From Rhizobium anhuiense (GTDB taxonomy: Bacteria > Pseudomonadota > Alphaproteobacteria > Rhizobiales > Rhizobiaceae): a DNA stretch of 64,000 bases. The stretch is taken from positions 496,001 to 560,000 of the forward strand of contig NZ_ML133521.1 in NCBI RefSeq assembly GCF_003985145.1. Reading direction: 5' to 3'. The stretch's first letter is position 1. Each line of letters starts with the position of its first letter. Under the pieces are notes generated by a model that saw nothing but the letters and a program-made list of their open reading frames with translations, was not told the origin of the DNA and ran no database searches. The translations under genes were made by a program, and so were the position numbers. Shown here piece after piece: positions 29,117 to 43,133 of this stretch.

Positions 29117-30211
29117 ATGAAGTCCATCGACCTCATGTATCAGACCATGCTCGCCGAGCTGGGTCAGCGCTCGCTCGACGCCGCTTGGACGGCCGATTTC
29201 CCTCCTGAGGGTCGGTTCACCCCGGCAAACATCAAGGGGCGCAAGTACTGGTACTTCGACATCCCAGATGGACATGGTGGTACCAAACGGCGTTACGTCG
29301 GTTCTGCTGATGATCCCGATATCGCGCAACGCGTAGCTGATCATAAGCGGGACAAGGACGATCTACGCGCTCGAAGGCGCTTGGTAAATAGCCTGACCCG
29401 CGAAGGCGGGATGATCGCCCCTGACGCCATGTCGGGCGACATCGTCGAGGCTCTTGCCGATGGCGGTCTCTTTCGGCTCCGGGGTGTTCTCATCGGCACG
29501 GTGGCCTTTCAATGCTACTCAGGACTGCTGGGCGTCCGCCTTCCCATGGCTGCGATCCTGACCGGCGATGCGGATATCGCCCAGGACTATGCCATCAGTC
29601 GGGAGGTTGAAGACAGTCTGCCTCCGATCGTTGAGCTGCTGCAGGGCGTCGACGCCAGCTTCCGGCCAGTTCCACACCGATCCGGATCCGCGGCCTCGTC
29701 GGCGTTTCAGAATGCCGACGGCTACAGGGTTGAATTCCTGACGTCGAACCGTGGTTCGGATGATTACATCGACCAGCCGGCGAAGATGCCTGCCCTTGGT
29801 GGCGCCGGCGCGGATCCACTACGCTTTCTCGACTTCCTCATAAGGGAGCCCGTCAGGACAATGCTGCTCCACCGAAGCGGTGTCCCAGTCGTCGTCCCTG
29901 ATCCGTCCCGGTATGCGGTCCATAAGCTCATAGTCGCCAGCCGCCGACACACTGACGGGCAGGGGCCGGCGAAGCGAGAGAAGGATGTTCATCAAGCTGC
30001 GCTGCTCGTTGAAGCCCTGCAGCAGACAAGGCGATCTGCCGACTTGGCGCTCGTCTACAACGAAGCATGGGAGCGCGGGCCTGCGTGGCAAGAAGGTATT
30101 CGAACCGGGGCGGGAATGCTGCCGGCACAAGATGCCGAGCGGCTCAACACGGTGCTAATGGAGGGGGCAAAAAGAAACCGCGAAGAAATTGAACTTCCGT
30201 TTGGAGAGTAG
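29117..30211 (+). CDS. GSU2403-type nucleotidyltransferase fold protein (NTP_transf_8)
   Basis: A 364-residue protein of the GSU2403/NTP_transf_8 group. After a helical N-terminus comes KGRKYWYFDIPDGHGGTKRR, then the nucleotidyltransferase core FRLRGVLIGTVAFQCYSGLL and TGDADIAQDYAIS, where the Asp pair would bind metal. PVVVPDPSRYAVHKLIVASR resembles the downstream helical part of this family. MKSIDLMYQ (29117) is the start because GGAG precedes it and the palindrome fills the upstream in-frame extension. Relatives are thought to be toxin-like nucleotidyltransferases, but no partner is adjacent. Confidence 0.78.
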   Translation: MKSIDLMYQTMLAELGQRSLDAAWTADFPPEGRFTPANIKGRKYWYFDIPDGHGGTKRRYVGSADDPDIAQRVADHKRDKDDLRARRRLVNSLTREGGMIAPDAMSGDIVEALADGGLFRLRGVLIGTVAFQCYSGLLGVRLPMAAILTGDADIAQDYAISREVEDSLPPIVELLQGVDASFRPVPHRSGSAASSAFQNADGYRVEFLTSNRGSDDYIDQPAKMPALGGAGADPLRFLDFLIREPVRTMLLHRSGVPVVVPDPSRYAVHKLIVASRRHTDGQGPAKREKDVHQAALLVEALQQTRRSADLALVYNEAWERGPAWQEGIRTGAGMLPAQDAERLNTVLMEGAKRNREEIELPFGE

Positions 30212-30849: not shown

Positions 30850-31304
30850 CTGCGTCCTCCATCTCATTGCGAAGTCTCGGTCTCAGCGTTTGTATCCTCC
30901 ACATTGCCTCCTCAATGCGATCAAGGGCTGGCGATGATCAAAATATGTTGTAGTGACTACGTGGATTCGAAGCTTTGGATCAAAAGCTTTTCGTTTTCTC
31001 GTGTACCGGCGTTTTGATCTGCTTTGACCAGCCGCCCGTAATATTGCTTATTCAAAACAGGGCCGCATGCCGCGAAAGTATCCAAGTTGGAAACGGATCT
31101 TTCGGTTGCTGCGAAGCTGCGATCGTCGACAATTGCGATTTTGTTGTGCGCGTTAACGATTGCCGGTCCGTCGGGGAGGGTGGCGCCGCACCGACGTGGC
31201 CGCAGTCTGCAATACCGGCCGACCGGCGCTCTCGATGGTTGGAGAGCGCTCGTGGCGTGAAAGGCCAGCGGTTGCGTCGGCCTCGTTGGTTCGTGCGGGA
31301 CGAA
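30850..31304. other. intergenic region without recognisable gene
   Basis: The plus-strand frame into the following ORF and minus-strand frames of over 100 codons cross this stretch, but none shows protein-like conservation or a good start. Confidence 0.3.
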
Positions 31305-31580
31305 ATGAGGTTCATGGAACTCAAGACGAAACTTGATCCGGCGCTGGACGACCTTTGCGACGACTGTACCGCAGAGTTTGCGATGTTTGCCGCTGAGACC
31401 AAAAAGATGTTCAAGGCCATACCACGCAGTCACCACGACCGGTTCGATATCGAGCTTCAGTCCAAGTTGTCCGAGAGTTATGTCGTGCCGAGCTCCGGAT
31501 TGATGGCGATCGGTTATGCACTTGAAGAGGTGTCGAAATCCGGGGATGAAAATTATCCTCGCAGGTTAGACCACCAGTGA
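31305..31580 (+). CDS. hypothetical protein, 91 aa
   Basis: From MRFMELKTKLDPALDDL the frame encodes CDDCTAEFAMFAAETKKMFK, AIPRSHHDRFDIELQSKLSE and SSGLMAIGYALEEVSKSG. It is helical and charged, with a CxxC pair near residue 19. The frame is open further upstream, but composition there is poor. No family recognised; it is convergent with trpB. Confidence 0.35.
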   Translation: MRFMELKTKLDPALDDLCDDCTAEFAMFAAETKKMFKAIPRSHHDRFDIELQSKLSESYVVPSSGLMAIGYALEEVSKSGDENYPRRLDHQ

Positions 31581-31751
31581 TGGGGCGGTCATTCCTTCAA
31601 TGTCGAGCGAATGCTGATCGGCCATTATATCGCGGAAGGCCGCCTACGAAGACTGACGGCCTCCCGCACTCAAGGACCCTATCGAGCATCAAGTGGCCGA
31701 AGACGAAGCGCATGATCTCGGCATTTGTTAACATGGGTGCCTCCGCAATTG

Positions 31752-32957
31752 TCACTCTCGTTTCAACAGGTTGGACACCGTGAAAATGTCCTTGTCGCCG
31801 CGGCCGCAGAGATTGACGATAATGATCTTGTCTGGCGCCATGAGCTTTGCTGTCTTCATGACCTCGGCAATGGCATGCGATGGCTCCAGCGCCGGAATGA
31901 TGCCTTCCACCGTCGATAAGAAGTGGAACGCCTCCAGAGCTTCTGCGTCCGTGGCCGACGCATAGCTCACGCGTCCGCTTTCCTTCAGCCAGGCATGCTC
32001 CGGTCCTACACCCGGATAGTCGAGGCCTGCAGAAATCGTGTGTCCCCCGTTGATCTGTCCGTCACCGTCCTGCAGAAGATAGGTGCGGTTTCCGTGGAGG
32101 ACGCCGGGCTTCCCTTTGGTCAAGGATGCGCAGTGCTCCGATGTATCGAGCCCTTTCCCGGCGGGCTCAACGCCAATCATGGAGACGCGACTATCGGCGA
32201 GAAACGGGTGAAACAGGCCGATCGCGTTCGAACCACCACCGATAGCTGCGACCAGAAGGTCAGGCAGGCGGCCCTCATACCCAATTATCTGCTCACGCGC
32301 TTCCCTGCCGATCACCGACTGCAAGGTCCTGACCATCTCTGGATAGGGATGGGGACCGGCTGCCGTTCCGATCAAATAGTAGGTATCCTCGACGTTCGAG
32401 ACCCAGTCGCGAAGCGCCTCGTTCATGGCATCCTTGAGAGTGCCGTTTCCCGAGGTCACGGCGCGCACCTCCGCTCCAAGCAGCTTCATCCGGAAGACGT
32501 TAGGAGCCTGCCGCTCAATGTCTGTCGCCCCCATGTAGATGACACAATCGAGCCCGAACCGCGCCGCCATCGTAGCGGTTGCGACACCGTGCTGACCTGC
32601 GCCCGTCTCCGCGATGATGCGCTGTTTCCCCATCCGCCGGGCGATAAGGATCTGACCGAGGCAATTGTTGATCTTGTGTGAGCCGGTATTGTTCAATTCA
32701 TCCCGTTTCAGGTAGATGCGCGCGCCGCCGAGCCTGGCGGTGAATCTTTCGGCAAAATAAAGCGGACTGGGCCTACCAACATAATTTCGGGACAACTCGT
32801 CCAGCTCGTCCCAGAATGATTGGTCGGTCTTGGCCGCTTGCCACTCCTCGGTCACCGCCATGAGCAGCGGCATAAGCGTCTCCGCGACAAAGCGGCCTCC
32901 AAACTTTCCGAAGAAGCCGTTGTCGTCGGGTAGCGCATTTGATGACATCTGTTGCAT
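31752..32957 (-). CDS. trpB: tryptophan synthase beta subunit (orphan copy)
   Basis: A 401-residue Trp[33 protein letters not shown] (PLP Lys), [35 protein letters not shown] (phosphate-binding loop) and [16 protein letters not shown] are all intact. It condenses indole or indole from TrpA with serine. No trpA or trpF is nearby; it lies downstream of folE and an SDR in the putative ChrR/sigma regulon. The start at 32957 follows AGGAG. An orphan TrpB may salvage indole or act as a stand-alone enzyme; this is inference. Confidence 0.93.
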
Positions 32958-33243
32958 TTTCCAACTCCTATCTTTGTTCGATACGGAACTGGTGAAATTC
33001 GGATGGTCTGGAGGCCGATATATTACACCCGCGCCAAAGCCGTTTGGATGATAAAGGCTCTTGCCTTGTCCAGTGTCTATGTTGAGCGATGCTTACAGCC
33101 GAGGAACCGGAGGCAGAGACCACGCACCGGAGAGCTTTTCCGCAAACGCTGCGGATATTTTGCCACGGCGCATTATCGTCACTTGAGCGTCGCTGCGCGA
33201 ATACCTACGGACCGTGGCGTTGAGATTGTCGGACCAAATGCGG

Positions 33244-33951
33244 CTACCAAGGAATGGTTGTTCCATCATATGCGAAGAAGCCGCCCGTATGGTGTGGTGT
33301 CAAATCGTCCAGCATCCGCAAGATGCGCTTGGCGGCTTCATCAGGCTTTGAACGCCGGTGGCCCGATGAAAATGGATCGGACAATCGAGTTATGACGGTC
33401 CCGGGATGCACGGTTACAAGCAGGGACAGAGGGTTCGCCCTGGCCACTTCTATTGCGGCTGTGTGAACGATCTGGTTAAGCGCGGCCTTCGACGAGCGAT
33501 ATGAAATCCAGCCTCCCAGCGCATTGTCGCCGATCGATCCCACCCGCGCCGATAGAAGGGCAAGAATTACCCGCTTCTTTTTTGCGAGCAGCGGGACGAA
33601 GTGCTTCACGACGAGGGCGGGTCCAACGGCGTTGACGGCAAACTGGGCCATCATGGCATTTTGCGAAATCTGGCGTATCGACTTCTCCGGTCCCATGCCG
33701 CCAATGGTCAAAGCACCCGTGGCACAGATGATGAGATCAAACTCATTCGACTTGAGCATGTCCGCCGCGCGCTGCACGGAATTCTCGTCCGTAAGGTCGA
33801 ACCCGTTCTCTTGACGAGAAAGTCGGGCAATCTTGGCGCAGTTGTTGTCCCTTTCCATCTGCCTCGAAATAGCATCTCCGATTCCTCCGCTGGCTCCAAT
33901 GACCAAGGCAGAATACCCCGCATCTAATGATCGCATCAGCGTTTCGGTCAT
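33244..33951 (-). CDS. C-factor-like short-chain dehydrogenase
   Basis: A 235-residue SDR: SALVIGASGGIGDAISRQME binds cofactor, FDLTDENSVQRAADML, FDLIICATGALTI, LLSARVGSIGDNALGGWISY with YRSSKAALNQ as YxxxK. The end, PDEAAKRILRMLDDLTPHHT and GGFFAYDGTTIPW, is typical of the CsgA/C-factor-like SDRs found in ChrR-sigma operons with photolyase and cfa genes. It starts 44 bases after folE. GGAGAA precedes the ATG. Substrate unknown. Confidence 0.87.
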   Translation of the reverse strand: MTETLMRSLDAGYSALVIGASGGIGDAISRQMERDNNCAKIARLSRQENGFDLTDENSVQRAADMLKSNEFDLIICATGALTIGGMGPEKSIRQISQNAMMAQFAVNAVGPALVVKHFVPLLAKKKRVILALLSARVGSIGDNALGGWISYRSSKAALNQIVHTAAIEVARANPLSLLVTVHPGTVITRLSDPFSSGHRRSKPDEAAKRILRMLDDLTPHHTGGFFAYDGTTIPW

Positions 33952-33995
33952 CCGGTGTTCTCCAGATTGCGTTCATTTTCGTCAGGAGGCCGGTT

Positions 33996-34604
33996 TCAAC
34001 CGCGGGCCAGCATTATGAAACGCGCCTGATCCGATGCAGAAGCTTCGAACTGTCCCGCGAACGCGGTCGTGAGCGTCTTGGCTCCCTGCTTCCGGAGGCC
34101 GCGCATCGCCATGCACATGTGCTCCGCCTCGATCATGACGGCGACGCCTTTCGGGCGTAGGCTTTCTTCAAGAGCCTTCGCGATCTGAGCAGTCATGGTT
34201 TCCTGGGTCTGCAGCCTGCGGGCATAGAGATCGACAAGCCTTGCCATTTTTGAAAGACCGAGCACGCCCTGCTCGGGAATGTATGCGATATGAGCAATCC
34301 CATGGAACGGCACCATGTGGTGCTCGCAATGGGAATGAAACTCGATGTCTCTGACGAGCACCATCTCGTTGTAGCCACCGACTTCGGAAAAAGTCTTCGA
34401 AAGCACATCCTCAGGCTCCGTTGCGTATCCGGAGAAGAGTTCGCGATAAGCCTTTGCCACCCGCTTCGGAGTATCAAGCAGACCTTCGCGTGATGGATCG
34501 TCTCCGGCCCAGCGTATTAGCGTACGCACCGCCTCCTCAGCCTGATGTTGAGTTGGACGTTCCGAGGCAGCCACCGGGCATGCATTGGTGACAATAGCAT
34601 CCAT
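33996..34604 (-). CDS. folE: GTP cyclohydrolase I
   Basis: A 202-residue GTP cyclohydrolase I, which opens GTP to dihydroneopterin triphosphate. [40 protein letters not shown] (zinc Cys and His), [20 protein letters not shown] and [20 protein letters not shown] (second zinc Cys) are all present. The ATG at 34604 follows GGAGAG. A TGATCC-type promoter lies 30-58 bases upstream. Reduced pterins serve folate and the antenna cofactor of photolyases, which fits an oxidative/light stress regulon. Confidence 0.95.
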
Positions 34605-34632
34605 AAATCTCTCCGGAATTAATATGCGACTT

Positions 34633-34662
34633 GGCTTACGTCCCATGCCGGGTTGCGGATCA
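34633..34662 (-). promoter_or_regulatory. ECF (ChrR-partner sigma) promoter upstream of folE
   Basis: On the minus strand TGATCC (34662-34657) and TAAGCC (34638-34633) are 18 bases apart, the -35/-10 arrangement reported for ChrR-controlled sigma factors. It shares TTTTGATCCGC and CGTAA with the sequence before the sigma gene. Confidence 0.7.
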
Positions 34663-34838
34663 AAACTGCCGATCTGCAAAGTAGCGCAACTGTCAGATCG
34701 TTCTGGATACGCTGGTGGTCTGGATTTGGTGAAGAGGTCGTGATTGCGACAGTCGATTTAGCGCGGACCCTGTTGACTTGTTCCGTCGCCTGCAACCAGT
34801 GCTCAGGCCACCTGTCGGATATATTTTGGTATGGCGTT

Positions 34839-35306
34839 TCAGCCGTTCAGCCAAATCAAAGACGCGTTCAGGACGGAAGCAAATCCCACCCATAGCGCAT
34901 AGGGAAAGAAGCAAAGACGCGCGACTCTATCTCTTGCTATCGCAATAAAACCAACGATGAAAATCAGTAGGCAGAGGATAATCGCCAGGCCCAAAGACAT
35001 CGCATGCGCTCCAAAGAACAGTGGTGTCCAAAGCCAGTTCAGGACCATCTGCCCTCCCCAGACCGTCATGGTCCGGCCCTTGGCACCCTCGGTAAGCCAC
35101 GTGCGCCAGCCCGCGAATGCAATCAGGATATAGAGCACGGTCCATGCCGGACCGAAAATCCAATTCGGCGGATTGAAAAACGGCTTGTTCAACGAGGCAT
35201 ACCAAGCCCCTGGTTGAATGGTTAGGCCGATCGCCAGCCCGACCCCGATGACGACAAGGAGAAACAGGCACAGCATCATTGCGCTGGTGGTGCGGTTTGA
35301 GGTCAT
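34839..35306 (-). CDS. tspO: TspO/MBR family protein
   Basis: A 155-residue integral membrane protein with five hydrophobic segments. WYASLNKPFFNPPNWIFGPA, WTVLYILIAFAGWRTWL, QMVLNWLWTPLFFGAH and FFPYALWVGFASVLNASLIW are the aromatic-rich TspO signatures. TspO binds porphyrins and related compounds and modulates photooxidative responses in Rhodobacter. The start is MTSNRTTSA (35306). It lies 61 bases after the lipocalin gene and probably belongs to that transcript. Confidence 0.92.
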   Translation of the reverse strand: MTSNRTTSAMMLCLFLLVVIGVGLAIGLTIQPGAWYASLNKPFFNPPNWIFGPAWTVLYILIAFAGWRTWLTEGAKGRTMTVWGGQMVLNWLWTPLFFGAHAMSLGLAIILCLLIFIVGFIAIARDRVARLCFFPYALWVGFASVLNASLIWLNG

Positions 35307-35367
35307 AGCGCTGTTTTCTCCTGAACATCCGCGCGCGATCGGATATGCGACCGGTCTGTTTCTTTCG

Positions 35368-35898
35368 TCACTGCGGCGGAAACTCAAGCTTGCGAACGTC
35401 ATAGCCGAGTTCGCTCGCCTTCTTTATCATGCCGTGCAACTTGTTTTTCGAGGGAACGTTCCTGGAGTAAATCCACAGGTTCGTCATCGACGGGTTGGCG
35501 CTGATAAACCAGGATTTGTCAGGAGATTTATACAAAACCCAATAGTTGAAAGTGATCAGCCAGGGGTATCGGACCTGCATCTTCGCATTTGTTGTCCCGA
35601 AATCCTGGATGGTCCCGGTGCCGCGGACGGTCTTCAGTCGACCTTGGGGCGTGTCGACTTTACAACCGTCCTCGATGATTATTTCATCTGGCGATTTGCC
35701 TTGTCGGTAGCTCGAATAGCCCGCAACGCAGCCGTCGGTCAGGAACATCGGTGTCCGGCCGACCTCCAGCCATGTCCCGCGATAGTGATCCAGTCCCACT
35801 TTAATCACGTTGGGTGTGGCGTACGCAGCGGCGGCTTCGCCAAGGATGAAGAGCACCGCCAGCAGAAGCCGACCCGCACGATTGAGACAATGTTTCAT
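35368..35898 (-). CDS. lipocalin family protein
   Basis: A 176-residue lipocalin with a Sec signal peptide (LNRAGRLLLAVLFILGEAAA, cleaved near AYA). YRGTWLEVGRTPMF is the GxW motif; GTGTIQDFGTTNAKMQVRYP, YWVLYKSPDKSWFISANPSM and LWIYSRNVPSKNKLHGMI form the barrel. Bacterial lipocalins store or transport lipids at the envelope and are often induced with cfa genes by oxidative stress. It overlaps the upstream membrane-protein stop by four bases. Confidence 0.88.
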   Translation of the reverse strand: MKHCLNRAGRLLLAVLFILGEAAAAYATPNVIKVGLDHYRGTWLEVGRTPMFLTDGCVAGYSSYRQGKSPDEIIIEDGCKVDTPQGRLKTVRGTGTIQDFGTTNAKMQVRYPWLITFNYWVLYKSPDKSWFISANPSMTNLWIYSRNVPSKNKLHGMIKKASELGYDVRKLEFPPQ

Positions 35899-36473
35899 GA
35901 ATACCTCCCCGGTGTAGGGTGCTCAGGCACCGCTGAATAAAGCCTCGACTGGCGTGAAGTTCCCGCATACCGCAGCGTTACGAAGGCCATCAGACTAGCC
36001 ACGGCGAACGCGTTCAAGTTGAGGAGCATCGCAAGGTCTGTTTGCGTCCAAACGTGCAGCGGCGCGCCGATGAAACCCCGCGAAAACACGAAGGCGGCGA
36101 AAATGAGGACAGCCATTCCACGTTGCCACCAATGTTCGTCTTCTCGAAATGAGACTGCAACGAGCATTAAGCAGGCCGCCAGAAACAACTCAGTACCAGA
36201 GGATTGTCCAAAGAGCTTCGTTTCGAACAGAGTGTCAAACGTACCGACCAGCGGAAGCGCGATCCTTGCCGATAGCGGCGAACGCCGGGCTATAAAAGGG
36301 ATCGCCAGAAAGAGCGGCGCTGCGGTTAATGTGCCAAGCGAAGCTGCCACGCCATCACCCACCAAATACCAAATGTATAGCGGGTAAAACGGCTTGTTCA
36401 GGAGGATGACCCAAACGACCGTCACGGAAGCCTTTGTCAATGGATCAAGATTTGCAGGTGCAACTGCCATCAT
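35895..36473 (-). CDS. hypothetical membrane protein in the ChrR regulon
   Basis: A 192-residue protein with about six hydrophobic segments (ASVTVVWVILLNKPFYPLYI, FLAACLMLVAVSF, AVLIFAAFVFSRGFI, LNLNAFAVASLMAFVTLRYA). I do not recognise the family with certainty; position suggests the unknown membrane protein that often accompanies cfa/DUF1295 genes. Start at 36473 (MMAVAPANL) overlaps the methyltransferase stop. It is followed by lipocalin with overlap. Confidence 0.7.
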   Translation of the reverse strand: MMAVAPANLDPLTKASVTVVWVILLNKPFYPLYIWYLVGDGVAASLGTLTAAPLFLAIPFIARRSPLSARIALPLVGTFDTLFETKLFGQSSGTELFLAACLMLVAVSFREDEHWWQRGMAVLIFAAFVFSRGFIGAPLHVWTQTDLAMLLNLNAFAVASLMAFVTLRYAGTSRQSRLYSAVPEHPTPGRYS

Positions 36474-37498
36474 GGTGTTCGCCCCAGAAGGTAGTGGCCG
36501 ACACCCCAGATGTCTCCCCTGTGATGGCCGAACATGCCAGCTGTCGAAAGAAAGAACAGTCTCCAACGGCGCTGCCATAGAGACGCGTCCCGGCCATAGA
36601 TCTGCCTTAAGATTGGCTGGATGCGATCGATGTGCCGATCGAAATTGGCAAGCCAGTCAAGAGAAGTGCGGCGATAATGTATGCCCGACCAGCGCCATTC
36701 CATTTCCACTTGGAACAGATCGCCGAAACGGTGCGGCAGATCATGGGCCGGCATGATGCCGCCGGTGAAGAAGTGCTGGGCGATCCAATCGGCAGGGTCA
36801 GCGCGGTCGAAACGATATGATCGGTCTTTGTGCGTGAAGATGTGCAGGAACAGCTTGCCGTCAGGCTCGATCCAGCGGTGCACCCGCTCTAAAAGCGCCC
36901 GCCAGTTCGACATGTGCTCGAACATTTCCACAGCGACGACGCGGTCATAACGCTGGTCGGCGTCAAAGTTGTTCATGTCGGCGGTGATGACGCTCAGGTT
37001 GGTCAATCCGCGTGCTTCGGCGCGGGCAATGATATGCGCTCGCTGAGAGGCGGAGTTTGATACGGAGGTGACGCGCGAATTCGGGAAATGCGTGGCGAGA
37101 TAGAGCGACAGCGAGCCCCAGCCGCAGCCGAGCTCAAGAATACTCATGCCATCGTCGATGGCGGCGTGGTTCACGGTCTCGGCAAGAGCAAAGGTTTCGG
37201 CCTCGTCAAGCGTCGTGGTATCTGTCGGGTATAGACAGCATGAGTATTTTTTCTGCGCCCCGAGCGCCAGCGCGAAAAACGCGGATGGCACTTCATAATG
37301 TTGGCGGTTGGCCTCGTCAGTATGCGTGGCGACCGGAAAATGCCCCATCGCGTCGACAAAGATCCTCTCGCCCTCAGCTGACGTCGCCGCCAGTCTGCGC
37401 TTGGTGCGGTTGCAGAGGAGCTCGATGCCTGCGAGCGTTATGCTGTCGCTGAGCGGGGCTCGCTCAGCAGTCTTGATAGCGAAAGCCATCACATTCAT
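36470..37498 (-). CDS. cyclopropane-fatty-acyl-phospholipid synthase-like SAM methyltransferase
   Basis: A 342-residue methyltransferase. The SAM-binding motif ILELGCGWGSLSLYLAT, VTSVSNSASQRAHI, YDRVVAVEMFEHMSNWRALL and LFLHIFTHKDRSYRFD follow the Cfa family, but with no N-terminal lipid-binding part and a shorter C-terminus than canonical Cfa (about 400). It would methylate or cyclopropanate membrane lipid acyl chains. It overlaps DUF1295 by four bases and the next gene too. The paralogous full cfa gene exists only as a scar at 38560-38666. Confidence 0.87.
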   Translation of the reverse strand: MNVMAFAIKTAERAPLSDSITLAGIELLCNRTKRRLAATSAEGERIFVDAMGHFPVATHTDEANRQHYEVPSAFFALALGAQKKYSCCLYPTDTTTLDEAETFALAETVNHAAIDDGMSILELGCGWGSLSLYLATHFPNSRVTSVSNSASQRAHIIARAEARGLTNLSVITADMNNFDADQRYDRVVAVEMFEHMSNWRALLERVHRWIEPDGKLFLHIFTHKDRSYRFDRADPADWIAQHFFTGGIMPAHDLPHRFGDLFQVEMEWRWSGIHYRRTSLDWLANFDRHIDRIQPILRQIYGRDASLWQRRWRLFFLSTAGMFGHHRGDIWGVGHYLLGRTP

Positions 37499-38295
37499 CG
37501 CTCATCTCCTTGTGGGCGCTGTCTTCGAGGTGCTGGGAAAAAGGCGTTGACGCGGGTCTGTAGGTCGCGGAACTTTTCGCCGCGCGAGCGCAGCATGTGC
37601 TCTTCGAGTGGGGGGATGCCGGAGACATGAACGAGCAGCCAATACATCAGCAGTGGTGCGAGGATCGACAGCCAGCTCGAGATTGGCGCCGCAATCGCGA
37701 AAAGTGGCCAGCAACACCAGAAGAGCCATTCGAAGAAATAGTTGGGGTGGCGCGAATAGCGCCATAGGCCTGCTTCGCAGACCTCTGTCTTCGCCTGTGG
37801 TGTTTTCCGGAAGCGCGCCAGCTGCACGTCGGCGATCGCCTCGCCAACCAGCGCTACAGCAGCGATCAAGGCTGCGATCCCATCAGCGAAACCTGGGAAC
37901 GCCATCCCATTGTTCGCTGCGAGATAGACCGCCAGCACGAGCACGAATGCCGCTAGCGCCTGGATCTGGAGAAAGAGGAATAGTCGCCACGCACCGCTAT
38001 CACCCCACTCTGCTATAAGTCTTGCATAACGGGGGTCTTCGCTACCGCCTCTGGTACGTGAACCGATATGGCCGCCGAGCCTCAGTGCCCATGCGGCGAT
38101 GATAGTCATGAGGGCGATGCGACGATCAAGGTCCCCATTCGAAAAAAGCGCTGCGGTCATACCGCCGACGCCTACCGCGGCGGACCAGATCGTGTCGATC
38201 CAGCCGCTCAAGCTCGTGACACGCTGAATTGCCCAGGCGATTACCATCGCAAGCGACAATAGGATCGCGATGAGAACTAAAAGAGACAAATCCAT
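37495..38295 (-). CDS. DUF1295 membrane protein (steroid 5-alpha-reductase-like)
   Basis: A 266-residue integral membrane protein of the DUF1295 family: TSLSGWIDTIWSAAVGVGG, HIGSRTRGGSEDPRYARLIA, FRKTPQAKTEVCEAGLWRYS, RHPNYFFEWLFWCCWPLFAI and PPLEEHMLRSRGEKFRDLQ. The RHPNYFxE motif is shared with isoprenylcysteine methyltransferases and 5-alpha reductases. Members accompany cfa genes and may reduce or modify lipid double bonds. MDLSLL (38295) or MEKTM four codons upstream could be the start. First gene of the minus-strand operon. Confidence 0.9.
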   Translation of the reverse strand: MDLSLLVLIAILLSLAMVIAWAIQRVTSLSGWIDTIWSAAVGVGGMTAALFSNGDLDRRIALMTIIAAWALRLGGHIGSRTRGGSEDPRYARLIAEWGDSGAWRLFLFLQIQALAAFVLVLAVYLAANNGMAFPGFADGIAALIAAVALVGEAIADVQLARFRKTPQAKTEVCEAGLWRYSRHPNYFFEWLFWCCWPLFAIAAPISSWLSILAPLLMYWLLVHVSGIPPLEEHMLRSRGEKFRDLQTRVNAFFPAPRRQRPQGDER

Positions 38296-38482
38296 CGTTT
38301 TTTCCATCGGGGTGGATTGCTAACGAGTTTCTCTACGGCCTTGCACACCGATCAGTTTTCCCCCGGGCCGCGAAAATTCTCAAAAAATTGTGCGGCCAGC
38401 AAAACTAACCTGAGTTCCTCCTCGTAGAGGCGGTCTGAAAACCATGCATCAGGGTCGGCAACCGCTCACACCGAGAGGCTAT

Positions 38483-38666
38483 ATGGAATTTGATAGTCGG
38501 AACGCTGGCGGACGGCGCCGGAATATAGCCGTCGTTGGAACCGACATCTCAGGGCTTTCGGCACGAGCGCTTCGAACGGCTCTGGAATTATTACCTTAGT
38601 TACTGCCAGGCTGGTTTTGAGGAAGGAAGCATCGACGTCGGCCTTTACACGATCGAACATGCTTGA
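38483..38666 (+). pseudogene. deletion scar joining amine-oxidase start to cfa end
   Basis: An ATG at 38483 opens a frame with RRRNIAVVGTDISGLS, the start of an FAD-dependent amine oxidase. At about 38558 it is followed, in the +1 frame, by HERFERLWNYYLSYCQAGFE and EGSIDVGLYTIEHA with a stop at 38664-38666, the C-terminus of a full-length cyclopropane-fatty-acid synthase. In related clusters these two genes are separated by DUF1365. The deletion removed nearly both genes and whatever lay between. Confidence 0.75.
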
Positions 38667-38689
38667 ATCGCACCTTGAGGAGAAACGGA

Positions 38690-39061
38690 ATGAACCCGAT
38701 GATGCCGATGGTCGCAGTTTTAGCTATTGGGGCTGCAAGCATGGCGGGGGCTGCTGACATCAGCGGTCAGTGGGCGCGCGGAGACGGAAACGCAAAGGTG
38801 AAGATCGCGCCTTGCGGTTCGGATGTCTGCGCTGTCAACACCTGGATCAAGCCGGGGACGCCGAAGGAGAAGGAAGGCGACAAGCTTGTGATGTCGATAA
38901 AACCAGACGCCGAGGGTAGCTATTCGGGCACTGCTTTCGATCCGCAGCGTAACTTGAGCTACAAGCTGACGGTAACCGTCGACGGCAACAGGATGACCAC
39001 GAAAGGCTGTGTGGTCGCTGGTTTGCTTTGCAAAGCTATGGACTGGACGCGCATTGACTGA
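38690..39061 (+). CDS. DUF2147 family periplasmic protein
   Basis: A 123-residue secreted protein. Signal peptide MMPMVAVLAIGAASMAGAA precedes DISGQWARGDGNAKVKIAPC, GSDVCAVNTWIKPGTPKEKE, YSGTAFDPQRNLSYKLTVTV and CVVAGLLCKAMDWTRI, the DUF2147 pattern. The start MNPMMPM (38690) follows GGAGAAACGG. It lies ahead of DUF2177 and is probably under the same stress sigma. Function unknown. Confidence 0.85.
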   Translation: MNPMMPMVAVLAIGAASMAGAADISGQWARGDGNAKVKIAPCGSDVCAVNTWIKPGTPKEKEGDKLVMSIKPDAEGSYSGTAFDPQRNLSYKLTVTVDGNRMTTKGCVVAGLLCKAMDWTRID

Positions 39062-39088
39062 GGCGCAGGATTTGCAAGGAGAAAAAAT

Positions 39089-39511
39089 GTGAAAACCTAT
39101 ATTGTCGCTTATCTTGCAACGCTGATTGTTTTCGTAGCGATTGATTTCGTATGGCTTGGCAGCATGGCAGATCGCCTTTATCGCCCGACTTTGGGCGAAA
39201 TTCTGGCCCCTGAATTCAGGCTGGCTCCAGCCGTCGCCTTTTACCTCACCTACGCGGCCGGACTGACGTTTCTGGCTGTCAGGGCAGGCTTGATGTCTGG
39301 CTCCGTGGTCACGGCCGCACTATACGGCGCGGCCGTTGGCTTCACAGCGTACGCAACCTACGACTTGACAAACCAATCGACGCTTAAAAATTGGTCGACG
39401 ACTTTAACGATGGCCGATTTGCTTTGGGGTAGCGCCTTATCGGCTGTTTCAGCCGGCGCAGCTTTTTGGATTACGCAGCGAGTTGTGGGAACACTGGATA
39501 AGATGTGGTGA
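39089..39511 (+). CDS. DUF2177 family membrane protein
   Basis: A 140-residue protein with four hydrophobic segments: IVAYLATLIVFVAIDFVWLG, PAVAFYLTYAAGLTFLAVRA, AVGFTAYATYDLTNQSTLKN (the conserved signature) and WGSALSAVSAGAAFWI. DUF2177 genes commonly neighbour ChrR-type sigma operons. GTG at 39089 follows AAGGAG. It starts 27 bases after DUF2147. Function unknown. Confidence 0.88.
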   Translation: MKTYIVAYLATLIVFVAIDFVWLGSMADRLYRPTLGEILAPEFRLAPAVAFYLTYAAGLTFLAVRAGLMSGSVVTAALYGAAVGFTAYATYDLTNQSTLKNWSTTLTMADLLWGSALSAVSAGAAFWITQRVVGTLDKMW

Positions 39512-39582
39512 GGTTCCGTAGGGGATATCTGACTTCGCATCGGCAGATGATCCGTAGCGTGTTTAAATTATTCACGTCGCTT

Positions 39583-39614
39583 TTTTGATCCGCTCAGGTT
39601 CGCACGCGTAATTC
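39583..39614 (+). promoter_or_regulatory. putative autoregulated ECF promoter before the sigma gene
   Basis: TTTTGATCCGC and CGTAA recur here with a 13-base middle, against 14 in the folE promoter. As hexamers this is TGATCC (39586-39591), 17 bases, TAATTC (39609-39614). Confidence 0.6.
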
Positions 39615-39739
39615 AGGTCATGAACATGCAATTACCGCTCCGATCCGGATTACGTCGAGGGAACTGTGCTAAGGCAGTCGCCTGGCGCACGCCGGGTTTG
39701 GAACGAAAGGTCGGCGCCTTGGGGGAAGAGAAGCAAAAA

Positions 39740-40294
39740 TTGGATGCCGCGCGGATCAATTCATTGATGTCGGCCGTGGGAAAGTCGCGCGACATCGACT
39801 CATTCGAAATTCTGTACAGGCACTTTTGCCCGCGCGTCCGCTCTTACATGGTCCGTCTGACGAGAGGCAATCGCATACTCGCTGAGGAACTGACCCAGGA
39901 AACCATGATGCGCGTCTGGAATAAGGCGGCGCTGTTCGATTCATCAAAAGCGCAGGCATCGACCTGGATATTTGCGATTGCGAGAAATCAAATGATCGAT
40001 GCTGCCCGCAAAGGTGCCCATCCGGAATTCGACATTAACGACCCCGCGTTTGTGCCAGATGAGATGGAAGCAGCTGACGTCAAGATACAGCGGCAACAGA
40101 ACGCGCAGGAGCTGCATAATGCAATGCTCACATTGAAACAGAAGTACGTGGAAGTCCTTCGGATGTCGTTCTTCGACGGTCTGACCCACACAATGATAGC
40201 AGAAAAACTAAACCTCCCACTTGGAACGGTAAAATCGAGGATACGGCTTGCATGCGAGAAATTGCGGATGGCGATTCAGGACGATGCCAAATGA
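39740..40294 (+). CDS. ECF sigma factor, ChrR-controlled (RpoE/ECF11 type)
   Basis: An ECF sigma factor. Region 2: FEILYRHFCPRVRSYMVRLT, then AEELTQETMMRVWNKAALFD and ASTWIFAIARNQMIDAAR. Region 4: LTLKQKYVEVLRMSFFDGLT, MIAEKLNLPLGTVKSRIRLA. The start is uncertain: TTG 39740 behind GGGGGAAGAGAAG gives a normal length of 184 residues; ATG 39767 is possible, while the frame extends to ATG 39620 near the predicted transcription start. It overlaps the anti-sigma gene as ATGA. By homology it is activated by singlet oxygen. Confidence 0.9.
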   Translation: MDAARINSLMSAVGKSRDIDSFEILYRHFCPRVRSYMVRLTRGNRILAEELTQETMMRVWNKAALFDSSKAQASTWIFAIARNQMIDAARKGAHPEFDINDPAFVPDEMEAADVKIQRQQNAQELHNAMLTLKQKYVEVLRMSFFDGLTHTMIAEKLNLPLGTVKSRIRLACEKLRMAIQDDAK

Positions 40295-40944
40295 TTGAAC
40301 ACCATCTGGATGACGATATGCTCCTGCACTACTCCGCCGGGACTCTGGCGGAGGGTTGGAGCGTCGCAGTTGCGACCCACCTCGCACTTTGCCCATTATG
40401 CCGCGCAAGTCTTGCGATGCTCGAAAACGTTGGGGGCTACTTTCTCGAATCCGAAGACGCAGGCGAAGACGACGTGACAGCAAGCTGGCAAAGCCTCCGA
40501 GCGACGATTGAAGCTGGTGAGATCGAGAAAGTGGTGCCAATCAAGAAGCACACGGCCGCCAACAACATTTACCCCGAGCCCCTGAGGTCTTACATAGAGC
40601 GAGCTGGCGGGTTGAGGTGGCGCAGACTGGGCCGCGGCGCAGCGCAGATGATTATACCGACCGACGACAATACGACGACCGTTCGATTGCTGAAGATTCC
40701 TGCCGGTCAGCCCGTTCCGGAACATTCCCACGACGGCTCCGAACTGACGCTTGTTCTCGATGGCAGCTTCAGCGATGAAGTCTCGACGTTCGCGCGAGGC
40801 GACGTCGAAATGGCAGATGGCGATCTCATGCATCAGCCACGTGCCAGCGCCGGAAAAGACTGCATTTGTATTGCCGTCACTGACGCGCCTTTGCGCTTCA
40901 AAAGCAGGTTTGTGCGCTGGCTGCAACCTCTGTTGGGCATCTGA
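40291..40944 (+). CDS. chrR: ChrR family zinc anti-sigma factor
   Basis: A 217-residue ChrR. The N-terminal anti-sigma domain holds His5, His30, Cys34 and Cys37, with the spacing of the Rhodobacter zinc ligands (25, 4, 3). The C-terminal cupin has His145, His147, Glu151 and His181 (PVPEHSHDGSELTLVLDGSF), again with the family spacing (2, 4, 30). It sequesters the sigma factor until singlet oxygen triggers its turnover. It overlaps the sigma gene by four bases. All ligands are intact. Confidence 0.95.
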   Translation: MIEHHLDDDMLLHYSAGTLAEGWSVAVATHLALCPLCRASLAMLENVGGYFLESEDAGEDDVTASWQSLRATIEAGEIEKVVPIKKHTAANNIYPEPLRSYIERAGGLRWRRLGRGAAQMIIPTDDNTTTVRLLKIPAGQPVPEHSHDGSELTLVLDGSFSDEVSTFARGDVEMADGDLMHQPRASAGKDCICIAVTDAPLRFKSRFVRWLQPLLGI

Positions 40945-41051
40945 TGGTCAATAGAAATCACGACGCCGAGAAGCGCACAGTAAGGCGCCTTTGAACTGTA
41001 AATATCTGAAATCTCGATCTTGCTTTAAAATACTAGACCAATTTCCGAGAA

Positions 41052-41429
41052 CGCAGCCAACTCCAAGGATCACACGAAACTCGTCGCCGCTGTAAAGGCT
41101 GCGGGTTTGGTTTCAGCGTTTAAAGGCAAAGGACCTTTCACAGTCTTCGCGTGCACCAAGGAAGCGTTCGAAGCGCTCCGAGGGCACGGTGGAAACGCTT
41201 CCAAAGCCGGAGAATGAGGCTCGACTTGTAAAGCTGCTGACCTGCCACGTGATTGGTACCGATGCCATGTCGAGCACGGTCGGCGGCTATGTGTTCAGGG
41301 CCAAGGAAGCATGGGCAAGATCACCCTTACTGACAACCTAGGGGTAGTGCTACTGTGACGGTCGCTGATGTCAAGCAGTCGAATGGCGTCAACCATGTCA
41401 TCGATAAGGTGCGTCTGCCGAAAATGTAG
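41052..41429 (+). pseudogene. fasciclin domain gene, multiply frameshifted
   Basis: Successive frames give the fasciclin/FAS1 pattern: NSKDHTKLVAAVKAAGLVSA, FKGKGPFTVFACTKEAFEAL, GTVETLPKPENEARLVKLLT, CHVIGTDAMSS, then SATVTVADVKQSNGVNHVID and KVRLPKM with a stop at 41427-41429. At least three shifts and a missing signal peptide make it non-functional. Secreted FAS1 proteins often lie next to ChrR-sigma genes. Confidence 0.8.
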
Positions 41430-41468: not shown

Positions 41469-41666
41469 TCAGTCGATTGACGTGTCTGGCGTTTCTTCAA
41501 TATCTGATTGCCATCCGAGTTCCATGCATAACTTTTCTCCAGCAGTCACCCCTGTCCGGAGGTCTTGAAAGGGGCCTTCAAGAATTGTGGTTTTGCCACG
41601 AAAGATCACAATGACATTTTTAATCACCGGATCGTAGAAAACCGTCATTCCATACTCATAATTCAC
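41469..41666 (-). CDS. small hypothetical protein, 65 aa
   Basis: GTG at 41666 follows AAGGAG. The frame reads MNYEYGMTVFYDPVIKNVIV, IFRGKTTILEGPFQDLRTGV and TAGEKLCMELGWQSDIEETP. It looks like a compact beta/alpha protein, acidic at the end. I recall similar rhizobial proteins but no function. It is isolated between the fasciclin remnant and a long gene-poor stretch. Confidence 0.5.
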   Translation of the reverse strand: MNYEYGMTVFYDPVIKNVIVIFRGKTTILEGPFQDLRTGVTAGEKLCMELGWQSDIEETPDTSID

Positions 41667-41699: not shown

Positions 41700-43133
41700 C
41701 GGATGCCGCGCCGACCCCCTGCAGGCCTCACTCTGGTCCGCATCAGCTCCTGGGGTGCGGAGCCGGTCCGATCGCGGGTAGGACTTCCGCTCGGAACAGA
41801 TGTTTTACGTCAAACAACTCCGGCAGATCAGAACCGTTTCAACTCTGTTGACGATACCAGCAATTTCATTTCTGTGGCGCTCAACGCCGGATTATCTCAT
41901 TGCTTCACTGGCGGATAAAAAGTGTGGAAGCCTGAACAGGTCTTGTCCCACAGACGCTAGCACCAAAAGAACAAAAGAGGAGGAACCCGAGGGCAGTGGC
42001 CGGCACAGGATCGTGGGCTTGGCGCAACAGAGCGTCTTGTCGCCAACATAGCCTAGACCATAGTTCCCTCGTCCTGGCTGGCCATCTACGGTTCAGCGAA
42101 GCTGGTGACCGGGGCGAGTCCGGCGCTTGATGCCAAACCACCGCGTCTAACGCGGAAGCGTTCGCTTGCACACGTTGGTCGTACGGCGAACGGCCGTCCA
42201 TGCGGACAGCGTGTAAGTAGTCACCGAGTTTCCAAAGCGCCTTCTTGCCCCGCCACCAAGCTCACAGGCGTAAAACAAACGTGGTGTGGCATGGTGAAGA
42301 ATTGTGTCGCTGTCCAAACCAAGCGCTTTGAGACCTTCCCTCATCTTTGGGAGCCTCGGACTGGTGCCCTCGCCGAAGCGATTGTTGATACGACGCGAAA
42401 AATGCATTGCCTGCGTTCGCTGGACCGCCCGGCCAAGTTGTCGTCGAAAATCTGACGGACGAAGTGCCCCGAGTCGCAATGGTTAGCAAGGAAATAAGGG
42501 TTAATGAATCCTTAAACCCTAGTGGGCTGGAGATGAGCGCCTTCTGTGCGGCAGCAAGGGCTCTAGGAGCTTCTAAAAAGTTGCGACCTCGCAACTTTTT
42601 CAACGGAAGAAAGAGAGCACCAATCCGCAACGATGATACACCGACAGAAAGTTGCGGTGTAAGCGAAATTCCGCCGGCTTTGACGGACGACATCAAGAGA
42701 GAGCATGTTGCCCTTTGCAAAGTTGCGACCTCGCAACCTTAGTCCTGAAGGAGCCGGGCGACACTGCAAATCCCGTTTTCGGTTTTTTCCAATTTACACA
42801 GTTTCCGGCTCCTAATTCAATGTCGTCCGGGGATGAGAGGCTAGGGAGTTGCAATGGATGCATCGCCTAAATGCGCGTTGTCTAGCAGCATCTGCGTGCG
42901 CTGATCCTCGAACTCGGCAAGGGTTTTTCGTTCGTCGGAAGAAGAGCGGCATAGGACGGTATTTCCAAAGGTGAAATCGGGGTCATGGCGCCCCAACATC
43001 GTCAATCATCAAGCGTTCCATGGTCGGGCGCCGAGATAAAGCACGCCGCCATGAACACCTCTGGCGCCTTGCAGCGGTTCAGGGCATCCTATGATGGCTG
43101 AAAATTGTGTTTATGGCAGTTGGAGGATTGCCG
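41700..43133. other. 1.4-kb gene-poor region with repeated palindromes
   Basis: No frame here has both a credible start and a recognised family. A minus-strand stretch near 42060-42360 (LKALGLDSDTILHHATPRLF, then in another frame LHAVRMDGRSPYDQRVQANA) has protein-like texture with a frameshift and may be a decayed gene of unknown family. Repeated AAAGTTGCG motifs occur at 42577-42740. Confidence 0.35.
42575..42740. repeat. palindromic AAAGTTGCG repeats
   Basis: AAAAAGTTGCGA and TCGCAACTTTTT form a perfect 12-bp inverted repeat (42575-42600). The same core, AAAGTTGCGACCTCGCAAC, returns at 42719-42737, with a half copy AAAGTTGCG near 42649. The first copy, with its T-run, could also terminate transcription. 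Confidence 0.6.

Follow-up and report, generated by a model that had tools for sequence, protein, structure and literature searches.

Matching ECF11-type promoter candidates upstream of an accessory folE and a sigma factor–chrR pair in Rhizobium anhuiense

The stretch of DNA analyzed here (the window) covers 64,000 nucleotides (nt) of Rhizobium anhuiense, from position 496,001 to position 560,000 of contig NZ_ML133521.1 (C1 in our numbering; the genome comprises 7.12 Mb in 44 contigs). The window holds a gene encoding an extracytoplasmic function (ECF) sigma factor of the ECF11 type, followed by chrR, which encodes an anti-sigma factor with a cupin-like domain. On the opposite strand lies an accessory copy of folE, the gene encoding GTP cyclohydrolase I. 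An earlier note on this DNA had proposed that folE and the sigma gene are preceded by the same promoter. This was borne out, and comparison among relatives points to an ECF11-type sigma factor as the regulator of both genes.

The locus and its two matching promoters

The best match of the sigma factor among solved structures is RpoE of Rhodobacter sphaeroides (2q1z_A, 118.9 bits; next match, 59.5 bits), and the Pfam domains Sigma70_r2 and r4_2 are present. The ECF11-type label rests on this closest match, the ChrR neighbor and the promoter. The best solved match of the anti-sigma factor is R. sphaeroides ChrR (2z2s), and it scores 205 bits against TIGR02451 (cut-off, 124.5). When aligned to 2z2s_B using a published list of metal ligands (PMC6852236), it keeps THxxxCxxC, HxHxxxE and the later histidine, as expected of a ChrR-type protein with a zinc anti-sigma domain and a cupin-like domain.

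The accessory folE product is 67% identical to that of the other folE in the genome (contig C19). A gene encoding a short-chain dehydrogenase/reductase (SDR) follows folE and is probably part of the same transcript. The SDR gene also adjoins folE in two other genomes (G103 and G350) and in eight of nine plasmid loci that were fetched, the exception being L232. Its identification as FolM was not supported; among NCBIfam models, those that score best describe SDRs in general and stay below their cut-offs.

The sequence TTTTGATCCGC-N13/14-CGTAA occurs exactly twice in the window, once upstream of each gene and on opposite strands (Table 1). The looser form TGATCCG-N14-18-CGTAA was also observed twice, against 0.04 occurrences expected from dinucleotide shuffles, and none of 100 shuffles reached two. 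Both sites fit the motif reported for the ECF11 sigma factor σE of Vibrio cholerae, TGATC-N16-18-CGTAW (PMC5241685); at the sigma gene, TGATC-N16-CGTAA spans 39586-39611. The earlier note had seen no equally good copy upstream of the DUF1295 gene or trpB, and indeed neither carries an exact copy. Its list of sites was correct for the folE and sigma pair and overlooked three further near-copies, the TGATC[CT] sites of Table 1.

With a weight matrix built from the sigma promoters of 34 related loci (the window left out), the score is 22.7 at the sigma gene and 16.4 at folE; the simulated expectation per 64 kb, counting both strands, is 0.00 sites at 22.7 or above and 0.26 at 16.4 or above. By itself, the score of the folE site is moderately surprising at most, and the weight of the argument rests on the conservation tests.

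Table 1. Genes and sites of the R. anhuiense window (window coordinates)
Feature	Position	Strand	Description
Sigma promoter	39583..39611	+	TTTTGATCCGC-N13-CGTAA; -35 TGATCC 39586-39591; -10 CGTAA 39607-39611
ECF11-type sigma factor gene	39620..40294	+	ATG 9 nt after CGTA; extended at the N terminus relative to the R. sphaeroides RpoE alignment
chrR	40291..40944	+	Anti-sigma factor, cupin-like domain; conserved at both metal sites
folE promoter	34636..34665	-	TTTTGATCCGC-N14-CGTAA; -35 TGATCC 34657-34662; -10 CGTAA 34636-34640; CGTA to ATG, 32 nt
Accessory folE	33996..34604	-	GTP cyclohydrolase I, PF01227; ATG at 34604 with GGAGAGA Shine-Dalgarno
SDR oxidoreductase gene	33244..33951	-	44 nt 3' of folE
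TGATCC-N15-CGTA site	30958..30982	-	Divergent, back-to-back with 31015-31040(+); no clear downstream gene
TGATCT-N16-CGTA site	31015..31040	+	Before decayed-looking homolog (~31044-31655) of 'Urease operon accessory protein' gene
Weak trpB site	32982..33006	-	CCATCC-N15-CGTA, 24 nt before ATG
Element before DUF1295	38334..38359	-	AAAACT-N16-CGTA; class uncertain
TGATCT-N15-CGTA site	41806..41830	-	139 nt before small open reading frame 41469-41666

Conservation of the promoters and the start of the sigma gene

Among 394 genomes of the family, an accessory folE (at least 79% identity) was found in G103, G175 and G350 in addition to the genome itself; it is also present in Rhizobium sp. AC27/96. 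On plasmids, 22 records of at least 78% identity were listed and nine were fetched (one record, H32, has the same coordinates as G350 and is not one of the nine). These 14 copies (window, G103, G175, G350, AC27/96 and nine plasmid loci) form a single clade with a support of 100/100; a distant folE (L143) sits on a very long branch of the tree, where its placement is uninformative. All 14 carry TGATC[CT]-N15/16-CGTA ending 32-34 nt 5' of the ATG. The motif is absent from 28 of 28 other rhizobial folE genes, comprising a plasmid copy of R. rhizogenes and 27 further copies (L002 and L063-L088) that represent the folE genes with loci besides the three accessory ones, plus L002, and not every folE of the 394 genomes. 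Across 11 folE upstream regions, which correspond to about nine lineages as they include two close pairs (window/L229 and L230/L234), invariance extends to 9 of the 10 columns of the motif but to 1 of the 88 columns of its flanks, whose mean identity is 34%.

A sigma–chrR pair lies within the fetched stretch at 11 of the 14 accessory folE loci. Nine plasmids of the R. leguminosarum complex, among them pRL12 from R. johnstonii 3841, match positions 31700-41000 of the window at ~94% identity over 83-84% of this region. In a metagenome-assembled genome of the Hyphomicrobiaceae, a distant folE is divergent from the sigma gene of that genome and carries TGATCC-N16-CGTT.

The promoter of the sigma gene was examined at 102 sigma loci, not counting the window. 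At each, TGATCC-N15/16-CGT[AT] was searched for in 450 nt whose 3' end lies 30 nt inside the conserved part of the gene. The motif was found at 56 of 80 loci with a ChrR match and at none of 22 without one; these counts are not all independent, as in at least two pairs (L045/L100 and L055/L105) the two loci lie on contigs of equal length and are probably from the same genome. Together with the agreement with the σE motif, this supports the autoregulation that the earlier note had predicted. That note had also tied folE directly to the ChrR regulon. The presence of the motif at every accessory folE and at no other folE examined, and its fit to the published motif, support membership in the regulon, and the sequences suggest that the control is direct. 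On comparative evidence, the two sites are real and functional.

The position of the motif at the sigma gene suggests a leaderless transcript. Counting the window, 57 sigma genes carry the motif. In 45 of them an ATG follows CGTA at a distance of 8-10 nt (exactly 9 nt in 33) and opens a reading frame that continues without interruption, and in frame, into the sigma factor. Of the remaining 12, three have an out-of-frame ATG 10-13 nt after CGTA and nine have no ATG at 5-14 nt. The sigma mRNA is probably leaderless, and the position of the motif would make the A of this ATG the first transcribed nucleotide. The N-terminal extension looks coding, since close relatives have similar peptides there. 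The R. johnstonii annotation puts the start of the sigma gene 33 residues later, and the comparison suggests that the annotated starts of these sigma genes are too far downstream. Leaderless mRNAs are already known in Rhizobiaceae, as start mapping in Sinorhizobium meliloti has reported 171 of them (PMC3616915).

Scanning the genome with the motif had been proposed in the earlier note. TGATCC-N15/16-CGTAA has seven sites in the 7.12 Mb, compared to none when the motif is read backwards, and the sigma and folE sites are two of the seven. A third, which also has TTTTGATCCGC, lies 24 nt upstream of the only PF00875 photolyase gene found. Of the other four, three overlap open reading frames (ORFs). 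The last lies 154 nt upstream of an ORF whose first part seems LacI-like, and is itself overlapped by an ORF of 95 aa. A second pattern, TTTGATC-N16/17-CGTA, also has seven genome sites, five of which are those of folE, sigma and photolyase and two more in the window. The solved structure nearest to the PF00875 protein is a DNA photolyase, 4u63 (752 bits; next, 319), which we take to be Agrobacterium PhrA. A cfa-like gene lies downstream on the same strand. Among 18 photolyase loci, TGATCC-N-CGTA was found within 320 nt upstream in six, a CGTT variant in one and a TGAACC variant in one.

Proposed regulon and alternative explanations

Both sites are very probably read as promoters by an ECF11-type sigma factor, in the simplest case that of the window, as part of a ChrR stress regulon that includes folE. 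Since folE, the sigma gene and the photolyase gene all carry this start signal, they would probably be induced jointly when light generates oxidative stress. In resting cells, ChrR would hold the sigma factor. Singlet oxygen or a similar stress would then remove ChrR, as singlet oxygen does in published ECF11 work; the inducer in this organism is presumed from those systems. The free sigma factor would direct RNA polymerase to TGATCC-N15/16-CGTA promoters, transcribing its own gene and chrR (a positive feedback that brings a brake with it), the accessory folE along with the SDR gene that follows, and the photolyase gene elsewhere in the genome. Extra GTP cyclohydrolase would yield more dihydroneopterin triphosphate and from it folates and pterins. 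The likely use of the product would be as methenyltetrahydrofolate (MTHF) antenna in the photolyase made at the same time, or as another pterin; PhrA of A. tumefaciens has been reported to carry MTHF as antenna (PMC3204975).

Several observations weigh against this reading. In the window scan, a non-promoter site at 29311(+) scores 18.0, above folE; it has an exact core and was set aside as a promoter for its position inside an ORF. The strict motif is missing at 24 of the 80 ChrR-linked sigma loci, and 10 of the 18 photolyase loci have no such upstream site of any form. Three accessory folE loci carry the site without a sigma–chrR pair in the fetched stretch, namely those of G350 (L090), Rhizobium sp. 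BG4 (L232) and Ensifer adhaerens E-60 (L233); G350 has two such pairs, on another contig than its accessory folE. Finally, G029, an assembly of ~1890 contigs from the same genus, has sites at its photolyase gene and at a separate chrR paralog and has no match to a window-type sigma factor. Its sole sigma match, at 41% identity, and its sole ChrR match sit on different contigs, so another sigma factor may read such sites. The ORF-internal site, together with the 0.26 sites expected at the score of folE, could also be taken as a sign that the two strings resemble each other by chance. This explanation is rejected, with next to no probability left to it, because the motif is conserved at a fixed distance in all 14 accessory folE copies while the flanks average 34% identity. 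Conservation by itself does not separate classes of proteins, and the box could be the binding site of a repressor or activator instead of a sigma promoter. Its two-part form, the spacing of 15-16 nt, the fit to the σE motif and the fixed distance to the start codon (32-34 nt at folE, mostly 8-10 nt at the sigma gene) make this very improbable.

A further question is which sigma factor reads folE. The genome encodes a second ECF11-like sigma factor (C13:127109-127615; L059) that is 41% identical to that of the window, shares the segment LPLGTVKSRIRLA with it, and has no ChrR match in its 20-kb stretch. An ORF near this locus is presumably pterin-carbinolamine-dehydratase-like. A chrR paralog on contig C11 (57341-57955; L219 9204-9959) scores 145 bits against TIGR02451 (cut-off, 124.5), and by eye its two zinc cysteines read K and N. 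This orphan lies ~6 kb from the photolyase gene with no sigma match beside it, and TGATCC-N16-CGTA was found upstream of it in six of six genomes compared. With a second sigma factor, and with an orphan ChrR preceded by the same motif, the motif alone does not name the sigma factor that reads folE; these two and the sites of G029 mean that either sigma factor could serve it. In one alternative, which shares the ECF11-type promoters with the reading preferred above, folE and photolyase would be read mainly by the C13 sigma factor, perhaps held by the orphan ChrR, and the window sigma factor would merely overlap. We regard this as possible and somewhat unlikely: most accessory folE loci hold a ChrR-linked sigma gene in the fetched stretch, and the ChrR-less sigma loci lack such a motif before the sigma gene.

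A broader reading is offered tentatively and is somewhat unlikely. A plasmid-borne ECF11 module (sigma, ChrR and a dedicated folE–SDR unit) would be connected to a core network with the same promoter code, which comprises the ChrR-less ECF11-like sigma factor, the orphan ChrR lacking two zinc cysteines, and photolyase. The accessory folE would be expressed under stress only and would serve to provide photorepair with an antenna, either a pterin or a folate. The leaderless sigma mRNA would allow translation under stress.

Related systems have been described in other bacteria. The sigma factor and ChrR of the window are homologous to the RpoE–ChrR pair of R. sphaeroides. A table of the Rhodobacter RpoE regulon includes rpoE, chrR, photolyase, fatty-acid genes, a fasciclin gene (RSP_1409) and the GTP cyclohydrolase gene folE2 (RSP_1852), and FolE2 is called RpoE-dependent there (PMC7074977). 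RpoE control of a GTP cyclohydrolase gene is therefore already known, and what appears new here is a well-preserved folE member in Rhizobium. The window differs from Rhodobacter in that its cyclohydrolase belongs to the FolE family (PF01227) and is encoded by an accessory paralog near the sigma gene. In addition, a leaderless sigma mRNA is predicted, and the window shows signs of decay in the fasciclin gene and in some of the fatty-acid genes. The blue-light response of V. cholerae through σE–ChrR shares the promoter motif and the autoregulated pair; the main text of that report does not mention folate, pterin or cyclohydrolase (PMC5241685). In Pseudomonas, phrB, ufaM, folE and cryB have been reported as light-inducible, and phrB, ufaM and folE have been placed under LitR-type regulators in P. 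putida (PMC9758184). This is the same functional package, but it is controlled by LitR/CarH-type regulators with LOV (light, oxygen or voltage) proteins and not by an ECF sigma factor. The ECF sigma factors of S. meliloti have been assigned to groups 15, 16, 26, 29, 41 and 42, with FecI unclassified (PMC6180224). Control of folE by ChrR in Rhizobium was not found in the open-licence literature, searched at listing level.

The proposed regulon makes a sharp prediction, a second folE under singlet-oxygen control, that is testable in the tractable symbiont R. johnstonii 3841, where the locus is on pRL12. It would link folate supply to photorepair in a non-phototroph. It would also offer a natural case of two sigma/anti-sigma sets on one promoter code, in which insulation or crosstalk is measurable.

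Further sites and neighboring genes

The earlier note had guessed that trpB and the DUF1295 gene may use read-through or a weaker site. For trpB, a conserved weaker site was found: [CG]CATC[CT]-N15/16-CGTA is present in four of the four orthologs compared first. Of two inspected later, Rhizobium sp. C104 (L231) has CCATCC-N15-CGTA and E. adhaerens (L233) has a full TGATCT-N15-CGTA 24 nt 5' of the ATG, which gives six of six (five CCATCC/GCATCT forms and one TGATCT). An accessory trpB also adjoins folE in E. adhaerens (L233 11532-12728) and Rhizobium sp. C104 (L231 14440-15626, in two frames), so trpB appears to travel with the folE module. For DUF1295, NAAAC[CT]-N16-CGTA is conserved in five of five compared (the window and L229 being near-identical), and its class is uncertain; the opposite strand carries a similar element. 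DUF1295 was rejected as a plain ECF11 target; the suspected CTGATCGG string has no CGTA at the right spacing. Chance figures for the DUF1295 and trpB patterns (0.0036 and 0.0016 per 160 nt) are too favorable because the patterns were defined after inspection.

The urease-accessory homolog is 40% identical to an ORF at 707-1336 of L093. A site before or at the 'Urease operon accessory protein' gene was found in L093, L230, L231, L234, L236 (at 13924, minus strand) and L238, several of them back-to-back with the folE site. Back-to-back ECF11-type sites, one for folE and one on the opposite strand, were seen in L093, L230, L231, L232, L233, L234 and L238. The small ORF is 85% identical to the hypothetical RL_RS38845 of R. 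johnstonii 3841, which has the same site, and counterparts 64-89% identical occur in L093, L094, L229, L236 and L237.

A decayed-looking fasciclin homolog follows chrR in two overlapping frames (41035-41426). The gene is intact in L040, L093 and L094, with a TGAACC-N15-CGTA site; a fourth ortholog compared, L232, is without the site. Between the DUF1295 element and the sigma promoter, a remnant (38474-38663) resembles residues 47-79 of a flavin adenine dinucleotide (FAD) oxidoreductase of L093 (45%, E 0.003) and continues into the last 33 residues of the second cfa-like protein of L093 (70%), with the intervening genes missing. An ECF11-type site also precedes a gene for a response regulator with a Fis-type helix-turn-helix, which we take to be RegA/PrrA-like, in L093 (12982, minus strand; assigned by Pfam) and L094 (12971, minus strand), where the frame is short.

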